Positions 33,524-39,321 of a DNA stretch of 64,000 nucleotides are shown piece by piece. The position numbers and the translations under genes were made by a program. How positions within the stretch are numbered: position 1 is the first letter of the stretch; each line of letters begins with the position of its first letter. The notes under the pieces were generated by a model. It did no database searches. It was not told where the DNA came from and was given only the letters and a program-made list of their open reading frames with translations. The stretch comes from Halovivax cerinus. Its GTDB lineage: Archaea; Halobacteriota; Halobacteria; Halobacteriales; Natrialbaceae. The stretch covers positions 3,224,001 through 3,288,000 of the forward strand of contig NZ_CP101824.1 of the NCBI RefSeq assembly GCF_024498195.1, in the 5' to 3' direction.

Positions 33524-36151
33524 ATGGTGGAATTCACCAGACGTAACCTGCTCGCATCATCGACGGCGGCCGCGCTCGGACCCGGCGTGATCGGGAGTGT
33601 CGGAGCCGCGGGCCGACCCGACGAACACGACACGCCGGAGGCGCCGTACGTGAACGGACGGCTGAAGCGATTCGCCACGACGGCGAAGGGCGCGGAGGTG
33701 ACCGGCCCGTTCGTCTTCGAGACGGGCGAGGTGCTCTTCAGCGTCCAGCACCCGAGTCGCGACAATCCGGCGCCGTTCGACCGGGCGGGCGTCGGCGTCG
33801 TCGAGGGTTTTTCGTTCGCGTTCGACGGCTCGAACGACGACTTCCAGGAAGTAGAGCCGCCGCTCACGAACGCCGAACGGGGACGGGTGAAATCAGCCGC
33901 CGGGGAGTTCGTCTACCTCGTCACGGAGGGCGAGGAGATAAACGGGGGAACGGAGCGCTGGGGGCACCCGCAAACGCTGGACGGGACCGACGTCGCCGAT
34001 CTCGTAGGGGAGAGCTACGAGGGCGTCGGTTACAACCCCGACATGAACGTCTTCGTGGCGACGGACGACGCCGGGGCCGAGGGGTACCTCTTTACGAACA
34101 ACGAGACGACGCCCGGCTGCATCACCCGAACCCCGATCAGTCGCGGCGGGGCTGGCTCCTGGGAGGCGAATCTCGAGGACGCGATGGAGCTCGAAAATAC
34201 CGACGCGTTCCGCGCGGTCGGCGGCACGCGCATCAACTGTTATGGCGACCTGTCGCCCTGGGAGACGCCCCTGTCCGCCGAGGAGGAGTACGGCCACCCG
34301 CGAGTGAACGGGCTCGTGACGGTGAGTGACATCGTCGAAGCCGGCAGCGGCGTCGGCCTCCGCGGCGGCAGCGAGTTCTTCAACCGACCGAACGTCGGCG
34401 CGGTCGAAGCCTCGCTCGAAGACACCTTCGGCGACGATGCCTGGACACCGATGGGGCTCTGGTCGAACACAGGCGTCGAGAAGTTGGCGTACTACCTCGG
34501 CGCCAAGCCTATCGACCGCACCGACGGCGAGAACACCTCGACGCCGATCGGCGACGTCTTCCCCAATCGCTACCGGTACGGGAAGATCGTCGAAGTGACC
34601 GAACCCACGGCCGCGGAACCCGTCCCCGTCAAACACCACGTGTTCGGCCGCGCGGCCTGGGAGTGTCCCGACGTGCTGCCCGACGAGCGAACGGTCTACC
34701 TCGCATCCGACGGCGGCGCGAAGGGCATCTACAAGTTCGTCGCCGAGGAGCCCATCCCGAACTACGACGACCGAATGGACGTCCGTGGCACGCTGTACGC
34801 GATGAAAGCCGCCGAGATCGGCGAGGGAACCGTCGGCGAGACCGACCTCGACGTCGAGTGGCTCGAACTCGGGACGGCGAGTAACGCCGAGGTCGAATCC
34901 TGGATCGCCGACTACGACGACGTTACCCAGGTGGACTACCTCGAAACCCACGCCGAGACCGACTGGGAGGACGACCTCGACGCCGCCCTCGCCGAGGCCG
35001 ACGAGACCGTCGCGATCGAGGGCAACCGGGATTACATCACCGACGAAGAGATCGTCGAGTGGGCCAACCAGTACGACGAACGCGGCCCCGACGGCGTCGA
35101 CGAGGTGCTTCGTCGGGTACCATTCCTGGAGACGCGCGCCGCGGCGAAGGAAATCGGGGCCAGCGTCGAGTTCAACAAGGCGGAGGGGATCGACTCGATC
35201 GACGACGCCGAGCCCGGCGACTACGTCTACTTCGGGATCTCTTCCCTCGGCGGCTACATGACCGACGACCGTGGGGAGCTCCGGTTCGACGAGGTCGACA
35301 CCGGCGTCGTCTACCGCGCCCGCCTCGACGAGGCCTACGACGTCTCGCGACTGGAGCCCGTGATCGTCGGTCCGAACGCCAGTGATCCCGGTTCCCTGCA
35401 GGACGTCTCGCTCGTCAACGTCGACAACGTCTCCGTCATGGACGACGGACGCGTCCTCTGTTGTGAGGACAAGGGGACCTTCGGCCGCTCCTACCCCAAC
35501 GACGCGATGTGGGTCTACCAGCCGCCAGCGACGCTCCGGGTCGGATCCCTCGCGCTGGCGTACGACGCGACCGGGACGGTCGAGCTGACGACCAGTGCGC
35601 TCCCCGACGGACTCGCTGGCGGACGCGTCACGGTGACCGTCTCCCACGCCGACATCGCGGCGATCGCCGACGCGAGCTACGTCGACGAGCTCGCGCTCAC
35701 CGCCGATCCGGTCGTCGCATCCGACGGATCCGCCGTCGAGTTCCGCTTCGCGGACATCGAAGACGCCGTCGAGCCAGGCGCCGGCGAGACGACGCTCGCG
35801 TCGATCGAACTCGAAAGCGTCGAGACGGGGAGTACCGACCTGACGATCGAGACGCACGCCTTCGACGACGATGCAGGTGCACCGATCGAACCCGATTCGA
35901 AACCGGGTGTGGTCGTCGTCGGCCCGCCGCCGATCGGTGACGGACCCGGTGGTGACGCGCCGACGGATCCCGACGGGGACGGCAAATTCGAGGACGTCAA
36001 CGGGAACGGCCGCCTCGACTACGACGACGTCGTCACGCTGTTCTCACACCTGGAGGACGACGCGGTGGAACTCGACCCGGAGGCCTTCGACTTCAACGAG
36101 AACGGACGGATCGACTACGACGACGTCGACGCCCTCTACGACGAGCTGTGA
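33524..36151 (+). CDS. Tat-exported PhoX-like (DUF839) phosphatase with cohesin-like and dockerin domains
   Basis: An 875-residue secreted protein. Residues 1-30 hold a twin-arginine signal (TRRNLLASS...). Residues about 40-660 match the PhoX/DUF839 beta-propeller family (HPQTLDGTDVADLV, EGYLFTNNETTPGCITRTP, INCYGDLSPWETPLS, and metal-binding segments such as VLCCEDKGTFGRSYPNDAMW), whose members are often Ca2+-dependent phosphomonoesterases. Residues about 668-800 are cohesin-like. Residues about 815-875 form a dockerin: two Ca2+-loop/F-hand motifs, DVNGNGRLDYDDV and DFNENGRIDYDDV. Probable role: extracellular phosphate scavenging, displayed on or bound to the cell surface through the following gene product. 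The stop overlaps the next gene's start (GTGA). Confidence 0.83.
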   Translation: MVEFTRRNLLASSTAAALGPGVIGSVGAAGRPDEHDTPEAPYVNGRLKRFATTAKGAEVTGPFVFETGEVLFSVQHPSRDNPAPFDRAGVGVVEGFSFAFDGSNDDFQEVEPPLTNAERGRVKSAAGEFVYLVTEGEEINGGTERWGHPQTLDGTDVADLVGESYEGVGYNPDMNVFVATDDAGAEGYLFTNNETTPGCITRTPISRGGAGSWEANLEDAMELENTDAFRAVGGTRINCYGDLSPWETPLSAEEEYGHPRVNGLVTVSDIVEAGSGVGLRGGSEFFNRPNVGAVEASLEDTFGDDAWTPMGLWSNTGVEKLAYYLGAKPIDRTDGENTSTPIGDVFPNRYRYGKIVEVTEPTAAEPVPVKHHVFGRAAWECPDVLPDERTVYLASDGGAKGIYKFVAEEPIPNYDDRMDVRGTLYAMKAAEIGEGTVGETDLDVEWLELGTASNAEVESWIADYDDVTQVDYLETHAETDWEDDLDAALAEADETVAIEGNRDYITDEEIVEWANQYDERGPDGVDEVLRRVPFLETRAAAKEIGASVEFNKAEGIDSIDDAEPGDYVYFGISSLGGYMTDDRGELRFDEVDTGVVYRARLDEAYDVSRLEPVIVGPNASDPGSLQDVSLVNVDNVSVMDDGRVLCCEDKGTFGRSYPNDAMWVYQPPATLRVGSLALAYDATGTVELTTSALPDGLAGGRVTVTVSHADIAAIADASYVDELALTADPVVASDGSAVEFRFADIEDAVEPGAGETTLASIELESVETGSTDLTIETHAFDDDAGAPIEPDSKPGVVVVGPPPIGDGPGGDAPTDPDGDGKFEDVNGNGRLDYDDVVTLFSHLEDDAVELDPEAFDFNENGRIDYDDVDALYDEL

Positions 36152-36972
36152 ATCCAATGATCCGACCGGATCCCCCAGCCCCTGACACACCGCCGACCCC
36201 CGTCGACGAGTCGTCCGTATCGAGGCGGGTACCTGCGACCGTCGCCGCCGCAGCGCTCGCCATCCTGCTCACGCTGGGCGTCGTCGCCACACCCGTCGAG
36301 GCGACGACGGCGGCGGAGCGTTCGAACCAGACCATCCTCGTTGGGGACGCTACCACGACCCCCGGCCAGGGTGCGTCGGTGGACGTCGTGCTGACGGACG
36401 CGCCCGACGGCCTGGCCGGCTACGAGCTGACGCTCACGCTGGAGGGCGACGGCGTCGCCTCGATTCAGGGCGTCAGTTACCCCAGCGAGTTCGGATTGAC
36501 GTCGAACCCTGTCGTCGGCCCCGAGGGTCGATCGATCACCGTCGAAGCGGCTGACGTCGAAGACGAGATAGTGGCCGGCGACCGCGACGTCACGCTGGTG
36601 ACGATCGACGTTACCGGGCACGAACCCGGCGAAACGAGCCTCAGTGTAACCGGTGCGCGGCTCGACGCGGACGGCGGCGACGCGATCGACGTGTCCGACG
36701 AGGACGGAACCATCGCCGTCGGAGGCGAGGACGCCGATGGGGAACTCGACGACCGAGACACGCCAGCCGAGAGCGAACTCCCCGGCTTCGGACCGATCGC
36801 GGCGCTCACCGCACTCGGCTGGGCCGGGTGGAGACGGTACGACGGTACCGCGACCGAACCAATTGGAGGATCGTCCGTACCAGGTTCGCCCTTCCGATCG
36901 CACGTAGCACCCGGCCGTTCGAAGACTCCACAACCGGCGGACCGGACCGAACGAGGTGACGAGTCGCGATAG
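36148..36972 (+). CDS. Membrane-anchored cohesin-like protein
   Basis: A 274-residue exported protein starting with GTG overlapping the previous stop (an ATG at 36157 is an alternative). A long signal/anchor lies at residues about 25-55. Residues about 60-185 form a cohesin-like domain clearly similar to the one in the upstream protein (shared DGLAG, LT-NPVV, DVED and GETSL/GSTDL segments). A C-terminal PGFGPIAALTALGWAGW segment resembles PGF-CTERM sorting signals, but it is followed by about 47 unusual extra residues instead of a short basic end. It is likely the surface receptor for dockerin-bearing proteins such as the PhoX-like enzyme. Confidence 0.72.
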   Translation: MNPMIRPDPPAPDTPPTPVDESSVSRRVPATVAAAALAILLTLGVVATPVEATTAAERSNQTILVGDATTTPGQGASVDVVLTDAPDGLAGYELTLTLEGDGVASIQGVSYPSEFGLTSNPVVGPEGRSITVEAADVEDEIVAGDRDVTLVTIDVTGHEPGETSLSVTGARLDADGGDAIDVSDEDGTIAVGGEDADGELDDRDTPAESELPGFGPIAALTALGWAGWRRYDGTATEPIGGSSVPGSPFRSHVAPGRSKTPQPADRTERGDESR

Positions 36973-37162: not shown

Positions 37163-37993
37163 ATGCGACGACGACAAGCGATCAAACTACTCGGAACCGG
37201 AACGGTCGGTGGATCGGTGCTTTCGGGTACCGCATCGGCTGACATAACCAATCCTGGGTACGGCGGAACCGCACCGGAGTGGGAAGCGTTGTACGACCGC
37301 GGAGACATCGATATTGGCACGCGATCGACGCTCGTTATCGACTTCGTCAGCCACTCGCGGAGTCGGGGCTCGGCGACGTGGTCGAATCTGCAGGATCTGA
37401 TCGATCATCTCTGGGACGATATCAACACGTCGTATCTGGACGGGATCCGGGCGTACTGGCACACCTGGAAGTACATCCACACCACGTACGACGACTCGGA
37501 TCGAGTGGGATCGTCGGAAGCGTACCAGGACAAAGCGGCGACGCTACGATCCGTCTCGAATTACTCGGACTACACGGGACCGTTCCTCGTGCAACTGGAC
37601 GCAGGTGACGTAGACGGCGGGAGTGGAACGACGAAATTCGGTGCGGGGTCGAACGATCCGTACGATCCGAACAACCCTGATCATCCCGTCGCGTTCGCAG
37701 AATACGGGACGGATCATCGATACACGATGTGTCACGAACTCGGTCACTGCCTCGTCAATTCGTCTGTGACGAACGTCGACCACGATCACTACCTCGCAAA
37801 CTACGTGGAGTATTACGCTGACCCACCGAAAACTACGCTCATGGGCTACGAGGTAGAACACTTCGACGATGGAATGGCCGATTACCCCGACTTCCCCGAG
37901 GAACACACTGACCCCCTGGATTACGATCGACAAAACGAGTTCTCGTGTTTCTTCGACAACGCCATGTACGACACATATTACGACTATGCGTAA
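37163..37993 (+). CDS. Tat-exported HExxH metallopeptidase-like protein 1
   Basis: A 276-residue secreted protein. MRRRQAIKLLGTG... is a twin-arginine signal, cleaved around ASA (residues 24-26). The mature protein has many Trp, Tyr and Asp, a zinc-binding HELGH at 191-195, a candidate third His (209, in DHYLA) 14 residues later, and an LMGYE segment at 226-230 that could be a metzincin Met-turn. The paired paralogue shares all of these. It may degrade proteins outside the cell. No family name is recognised. It has its own TATA box. Confidence 0.68.
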   Translation: MRRRQAIKLLGTGTVGGSVLSGTASADITNPGYGGTAPEWEALYDRGDIDIGTRSTLVIDFVSHSRSRGSATWSNLQDLIDHLWDDINTSYLDGIRAYWHTWKYIHTTYDDSDRVGSSEAYQDKAATLRSVSNYSDYTGPFLVQLDAGDVDGGSGTTKFGAGSNDPYDPNNPDHPVAFAEYGTDHRYTMCHELGHCLVNSSVTNVDHDHYLANYVEYYADPPKTTLMGYEVEHFDDGMADYPDFPEEHTDPLDYDRQNEFSCFFDNAMYDTYYDYA

Positions 37994-38472: not shown

Positions 38473-39321
38473 ATGCGACGTCGACAAGCGATCAAAGTAG
38501 TTGGTGGAGCCACGATCGGTGGATCGGTACTGTCAACGACGGCATCGGCGGAGTCCGGATCGTACGGAACGTATCAGGAGTTGTACGACCGGGGCGAGAT
38601 CGACGTCTCTTCCCGAAACACGCTCGTCGTCAATTTCGTCTCCCATACCGAAGCATGGGGGCTCGGGGCGTGGTCTAACCTCCAAGACGTGATCGATCAC
38701 ATATATGACGACCTGTATATCCCATATCTCACCGGAATCAGAGCCATCTGGCACACGTGGCCGTACATCTACGAGTACTACGACGACGATGACAAGGATG
38801 CGAGCGCGCAACTGTACCAGGAGAAGGCCAAGTACCTCCGTGAAAATTCGGCATACTCACACTACACCGGGCCGTTCCTGTTTCAACTACGGTCCGAACA
38901 GATGGAGGACTGGAACGGCCTGGCCGAAATCAGTGGCGATGACGCAGATCCGTTCGCCCCGGAAAACGACGACCACCCGATCGCCTGGGCCGAGCTCGGC
39001 ACCGACGACAACTACACGATGTGTCACGAGATGGCCCACTGCATCGTAAACGACGAGTTCGCAGGCGTCGAGGACGACCACTACCTGGCCGATATCATCG
39101 ACCGGAGTGCGAATCCGCCGAAAACCACCATGATGGGGTACGAGAAGAGCCACTTCGAAAACGGCCCCAACGACACGGACGAATACCCGGCGGACCACGT
39201 CGAGGGAGATACCGACGGCGACGGAGATATCGAGGTCGAGTACGACCGCCAGATGCAGTTCTCGTCGTACTTCGACGACGCGGTTCGAGATACCTTCTGG
39301 GAGTACAAATACAACAACTGA
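38473..39321 (+). CDS. Tat-exported HExxH metallopeptidase-like protein 2
   Basis: A 282-residue paralogue of the gene at 37163-37993. The Tat signal (MRRRQAIKVVGG) is nearly the same. Shared blocks include LYDRGEID, WSNLQDVIDHI, TGIRAIWHTW, YTGPFL, and YTMCHEMAHCIVN with HEMAH at 185-189, DHYLAD (candidate ligand His203) and TTMMGYEKSHF. An acidic DTDGDGDIEVEYD insertion is unique to this copy. The two arose by tandem duplication. Function inferred as extracellular zinc peptidase. Confidence 0.68.
   Translation: MRRRQAIKVVGGATIGGSVLSTTASAESGSYGTYQELYDRGEIDVSSRNTLVVNFVSHTEAWGLGAWSNLQDVIDHIYDDLYIPYLTGIRAIWHTWPYIYEYYDDDDKDASAQLYQEKAKYLRENSAYSHYTGPFLFQLRSEQMEDWNGLAEISGDDADPFAPENDDHPIAWAELGTDDNYTMCHEMAHCIVNDEFAGVEDDHYLADIIDRSANPPKTTMMGYEKSHFENGPNDTDEYPADHVEGDTDGDGDIEVEYDRQMQFSSYFDDAVRDTFWEYKYNN

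Follow-up and report, generated by a model that had tools for sequence, protein, structure and literature searches.

The closest described counterpart of the locus analysed here is a pair of consecutive ORFs in Archaeoglobus fulgidus, in which the C-terminal dockerin of ORF2375 (residues 432-506) binds the N-terminal cohesin (residues 29-162) of the following ORF2376 (AfuDoc75-AfuCoh76, PMC9705933). Larger assemblies have been described in the archaeal ANME-1/2, which possess dockerin-bearing cargo and scaffold-like proteins that carry as many as 5 cohesins, while earlier-surveyed archaea are without large scaffoldins (PMC9012536). What cohesins and dockerins do outside of cellulosomes has been described as unknown (PMC5244752), and the haloarchaeal dockerins of some polysaccharide-degrading enzymes have been taken as substrate-binding modules (PMC10963439, PMC13260240). 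Papers describing haloarchaeal cohesins were not found in the open-access library that was searched.

The window, i.e. the whole stretch of 64,000 nucleotides that was analysed, belongs to the complete 3.90-Mb genome of Halovivax cerinus and contains two overlapping reading frames, here termed genes A and B. As in the A. fulgidus pair, the first gene encodes a C-terminal dockerin and the second a cohesin near its N-terminus, and the pair therefore is of an already known kind; moreover, the best fold match of the B domain is an A. fulgidus cohesin. The differences are that the upstream gene encodes a PhoX enzyme, that B has a membrane anchor, and that the pair recurs across haloarchaea. While binding has been published for the A. 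fulgidus proteins, A and B are known here from sequence and predicted folds. A sequence-only reading had described two overlapping genes with these domains, and both the genes and their domains were confirmed:

33524..36151, + strand: gene A, Tat-exported PhoX-family protein of 875 aa with C-terminal cohesin-fold domain and dockerin (ORF, PF05787, PDB 3zwu)
33524..33613, + strand: Tat-type signal region of A, TRRNLLASSTAAALG, boundary approximate (twin-arginine motif in relatives)
33614..35503, + strand: PhoX catalytic region of A (PF05787; invariant Cys in NCYGDLSPW aligned with Cys179 of 3zwu)
35522..35923, + strand: cohesin-fold domain of A (AF2, Foldseek, hhalign to the B domain)
35954..36148, + strand: dockerin of A, the sole window-type dockerin in the genome (PF00404 genome search, tail family profile)
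35993..36028, + strand: Ca-loop 1 of the dockerin, DVNGNGRLDYDD, with Tyr at loop position 10 (Tyr conserved with the partner)
36089..36124, + strand: Ca-loop 2 of the dockerin, DFNENGRIDYDD (loop reading)
36148..36972, + strand: gene B, membrane-anchored single-cohesin partner of 274 aa with GTG start (ORF; 4-nt overlap with A)
36148..36321, + strand: Sec-type signal region of B (N-terminus hydrophobic in all 46 relatives, 43 of which have no Tat motif)
36322..36726, + strand: cohesin-fold domain of B (AF2, Foldseek top match 2xdh)
36772..36840, + strand: PGF motif, C-terminal hydrophobic segment and RR of B, a probable membrane or archaeosortase anchor (TIGR04126 below cut-off, TM in relatives)

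The GTG start of B overlaps the stop of A by 4 nt, and such an overlap or a close spacing is kept in 46 pairs. As the arrangement is conserved across several haloarchaeal families, the pairing is not due to chance. Further downstream in the window, two adjacent paralogous secreted proteins with a twin-arginine-like start and an HExxH-like motif (CHELGH and CHEMAH) are encoded at 37163-37993 and 38473-39321; a Pfam scan gave no match for them.

The enzyme part of A matches PhoX (PF05787) in a Pfam scan of the protein (E 2.5e-20, 73.6 bits). A phmmer search of the PDB with the PhoX region alone gave no match, but the family profile of this region did match the solved PhoX of Pseudomonas fluorescens (3zwu, E 4.7e-11), and the assignment to the family is based on the profile matches together with an active-site Cys that aligns with residue 179 of 3zwu, which we take to be the iron-binding one. 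The Pseudomonas enzyme thus shares a homologous catalytic region with A but is without a cohesin or dockerin tail. In the relatives of A that carry a dockerin, a Tat motif is present in 55 of 56. Family membership makes A a predicted phosphatase with a putative role in phosphate acquisition. A paper on an H. volcanii polyphosphatase (PMC13318637) turned out to be unrelated to the pair.

Structure prediction gave a cohesin jelly-roll fold for the two domains that had been regarded as cohesin-like from the sequence. The AF2 model of the B domain (pLDDT 94.7, pTM 0.89) was compared with the PDB by Foldseek, and all 50 matches listed are cohesin-containing chains, headed by the non-cellulosomal cohesin 2xdh of A. 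fulgidus (E 3.3e-10, TM 0.75). In case of A, the whole tail consisting of cohesin and dockerin was modelled (pLDDT 87.2, pTM 0.72), and ranks 1-49 are again all cohesin-containing chains. Such fold comparisons were required because a sequence-only PDB search with the B profile had given zero matches. The Pfam Cohesin family PF00963 matches neither domain, even at E 10, and the term “cohesin-like” therefore rests on the fold and on profile-profile comparisons, in which the A and B domains match each other with 99.9% probability (hhalign), and in which the PF00963 cohesins of the same genome are matched by the B profile over its full length with 90.5% and by the A profile with only 12.8% probability. 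We therefore class both, on the basis of their models, as cohesin-fold domains and not as PF00963 members. Mean column identity is 62% for the A cohesin and 56% for the B cohesin.

The dockerin of A comprises two Ca-loops of 12 residues with a helix after each of them (AF2 helices at 173-181 and 205-214 of the tail), which agrees with its earlier description as a true two-loop dockerin. Dockerin_1 (PF00404, cut-off 22.9) scores 25.3 bits in the genome search and 20.5 bits in hmmscan of the protein, and the family profile of the tail matches the solved dockerins 1daq and 2mte (E 0.0076) and scores generic EF-hands better (E 1.5e-4).

The protein encoded by the overlapping next gene had been considered membrane-anchored, and this was borne out by its signal-like start and its C-terminal hydrophobic segment. 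Among B-type proteins, a signal-like hydrophobic N-terminus is found in 46/46 and a C-terminal transmembrane or hydrophobic segment in 45/46; a PGF-like motif is present in 25/46, and a Tat motif is missing from 43/46. Although the PGF-CTERM model TIGR04126 scores B with 13.9 bits, i.e. under the cut-off of 24.5, the C-terminus nevertheless has a PGF motif, a transmembrane segment and RR, and the genome encodes an archaeosortase A (285.6 bits). By the hydrophobicity threshold that we chose, a C-terminal transmembrane segment of their own was found in none of the 56 dockerin-bearing PhoX proteins, while the untailed PhoX proteins of loci L114, L143, L150 and L156 terminate with a moderately hydrophobic stretch that is PGF- or glycine-rich. 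This is consistent with the idea that the tail plus B and an own C-terminal segment are alternative routes to membrane retention.

A B-type domain is present in 136 of 391 Halobacteria genomes. The loci of 122 PhoX gene models were taken and classified with HMMs, whereby L164, a short untailed model of 237 aa, proved to be part of a frameshifted tailed gene and was left out of the counts. Loci with a partner had been picked in part by their match to B, and with this proviso a B-type gene lies directly downstream of 47 of the 56 dockerin-bearing PhoX genes, and another four stand first in a tandem pair that shares one B, so that 51/56 have a partner and five have none that was detected. All 56 also have the cohesin. 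In contrast, B is directly downstream of none of the 64 untailed PhoX genes and of neither of two genes with a cohesin tail but without a dockerin (0/~66 without dockerin overall). The latter two (L094:1982-4828 and L096:3536-6181), which have neither dockerin nor partner, are possible natural intermediates. On a tree of 123 PhoX catalytic domains including that of the window (FastTree only), the dockerin was gained or lost at least 12 times, and in nine branch-disjoint comparisons the partner changed in the same direction in 8.6 on average and in the opposite direction in 0 (sign test, median p 0.004). The divergence of B also tracks that of the dockerin beyond what the catalytic domain explains (partial r 0.30, p 5e-4); the correlation of B with the A cohesin is higher (0.47), which may merely reflect the common domain family.

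In dockerins of C. thermocellum, loop positions 10-11 hold the Ser-Thr recognition pair, and the S45A/T46A mutant complex 2ccl is among the Foldseek matches listed for B. In the dockerins studied here, Tyr10 of loop 1 is kept in 51/51 with a partner (50 by a script pattern, and L165, DTNGNGRLDYDD, read by eye) and in 0/5 without, which have Asp or His at this position (Fisher p 1.6e-6, computed with L165 counted against). These five orphans occupy about three places on the PhoX tree and thus do not represent five independent events. No other window-type cohesin was found in the orphan genomes at E 0.001. The loss of the socket is thus accompanied by the loss of the recognition residue of the plug, and Tyr10 of loop 1 likely is this residue, as judged from its conservation.

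The pair is probably a Ca2+-dependent two-gene tether by which B holds A at the cell surface. We infer the physical binding, its Ca2+ dependence, the surface location and the phosphatase activity. Mechanistically, A would be exported by the Tat system, presumably folded and with its metals, whereas B, exported separately, would remain membrane-bound through its C-terminal segment. A would then plug its dockerin into the cohesin of B, and an enzyme that itself has no C-terminal anchor would be retained at the surface. In this respect, most of what the sequence-only reading had proposed holds: the folds, the two-loop dockerin, the anchored partner, and also a functional dockerin-cohesin pairing, for which the phylogenetically controlled co-occurrence and the loss of the recognition residue argue. 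The comparison with a miniature cellulosome-like scaffold does not hold, as there is exactly one cohesin in 46/46 B-type proteins, which makes B a one-socket tether and not a scaffoldin. With clostridial (type I) cellulosomes, the pair has in common the cohesin fold, the two-loop dockerin and the logic of surface attachment, but it contains neither a multi-cohesin scaffoldin nor a glycoside hydrolase, there is only one enzyme per socket, and the enzyme has a cohesin of its own. The single cohesin per B and the non-polysaccharide PhoX cargo rule out membership in a cellulosome. From the likewise archaeal ANME systems, it differs in being a defined haloarchaeal two-gene unit with one anchored cohesin per enzyme pair and a PhoX cargo.

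How else could the tail of A be explained? The cohesin of A may be a chain link, an intramolecular cap or a spacer. If the dockerin of one A molecule bound the cohesin of another, head-to-tail chains would result, with B as the membrane end. Such self-assembly would agree with the facts that every dockerin-bearing PhoX has the cohesin as well, that the cohesins of A and B are closely related, and that the A cohesin is conserved at least as well as that of B. The residual divergences of the A cohesin and the dockerin are also correlated (0.65), but this may be linkage within one protein. What also speaks against the chains is that Tyr10 is lost along with B although the A cohesin remains, which suggests that B, and not the A cohesin, is the essential partner, and we consider self-assembly unlikely. 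Similarly doubtful is the extended proposal of a PhoX polymer that ends at B and that recognition residues would insulate from the multi-cohesin protease system of the same genome; if true, it would be an enzyme filament built from one gene and one anchor.

A capping of the own cohesin by the dockerin, with B binding something else, appears more improbable still. The tail pTM lies above our own estimate for freely moving domains, which, from the pTM only, hints that the two domains pack against each other in a defined way, but capping would leave both the co-gain and co-loss with B and the loss of Tyr10 in the orphans unexplained, and L094 and L096 retain the cohesin without a dockerin. Very unlikely is finally that the dockerin serves to bind a substrate or ions and that B is an unrelated surface protein: the tail profile does match generic EF-hand proteins too, but the conserved gene pairing, the co-loss and the cohesin fold of the neighbor argue against such a function. 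A reading of the tail as a generic EF-hand or stalk was ruled out by the fold, co-loss and Tyr10 results, and as far as testable here, the tail is more than a generic Ca2+ loop.

For the two-gene tether, a genetic natural experiment thus assigns to a dockerin its specific anchored partner and names the likely recognition residue. The reason for this design may be that a Tat-exported, metal-loaded enzyme gains a membrane anchor that is exported separately. The tether can be tested in culturable haloarchaea, as Haloarcula, Natrinema and Halorubrum carry the cohesin-dockerin tail, and it would provide a docking pair that is salt-stable and possibly orthogonal.

The search for other dockerin proteins in the genome, suggested together with the scaffold idea, revealed seven, all of them parts of other systems. 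The H. cerinus genome has a single window-type dockerin and two window-type cohesins, which are those of A and B, and no competing dockerin of this type was found in it. Dockerins of a protease cluster have, for example, Ser-Leu and Pro-Ala where A has Tyr-Asp, and an insulation between the systems is therefore predicted from these residues. This cluster (G000:C1, about 468-493 kb; L017:12985-19035 and L018:1-18106) is cellulosome-like and comprises subtilase genes that encode a type I dockerin along with one or two PF00963 cohesins, one cohesin-dockerin protein that is not a protease, and anchored proteins of 1, 1, 8 and 1 cohesins. In another genome of the genus (G207), an anchored protein of 2089 aa has 14 cohesins (L185:5165-11431, - strand) and is encoded beside dockerin-type relatives and an anchored 3-cohesin protein (L186). 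The proteins with 8 and 14 cohesins exceed the archaeal scaffoldins described in the open-access literature examined. A third pair of a dockerin gene followed by an anchored cohesin gene is present in the H. cerinus genome (L020:7347-9406, - strand; G000:C1, about 809-811 kb), downstream of a subtilase-like ORF of 2199 aa. At L074:2-11558, two GSDH/malectin dockerin proteins lie on either side of a protein that combines three cohesin-like domains with a dockerin and resembles an adaptor scaffoldin.

The tail is not confined to PhoX. Choice-of-anchor-I proteins (L174, L175, L177) have the same cohesin-dockerin tail, and so do GIFT/SNase proteins (L078, L082) and a protein without family assignment (L083), in which case an anchored single-cohesin gene follows. 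A glycoside-hydrolase-like protein of Methanophagales (L183) has such a tail with an adjoining cohesin gene, and related cohesins are spread through the phylum. Outside Halobacteriota, a Thermoproteaceae MAG (L225, L226) encodes relatives of the cohesin and dockerin tail with 36-37% identity.
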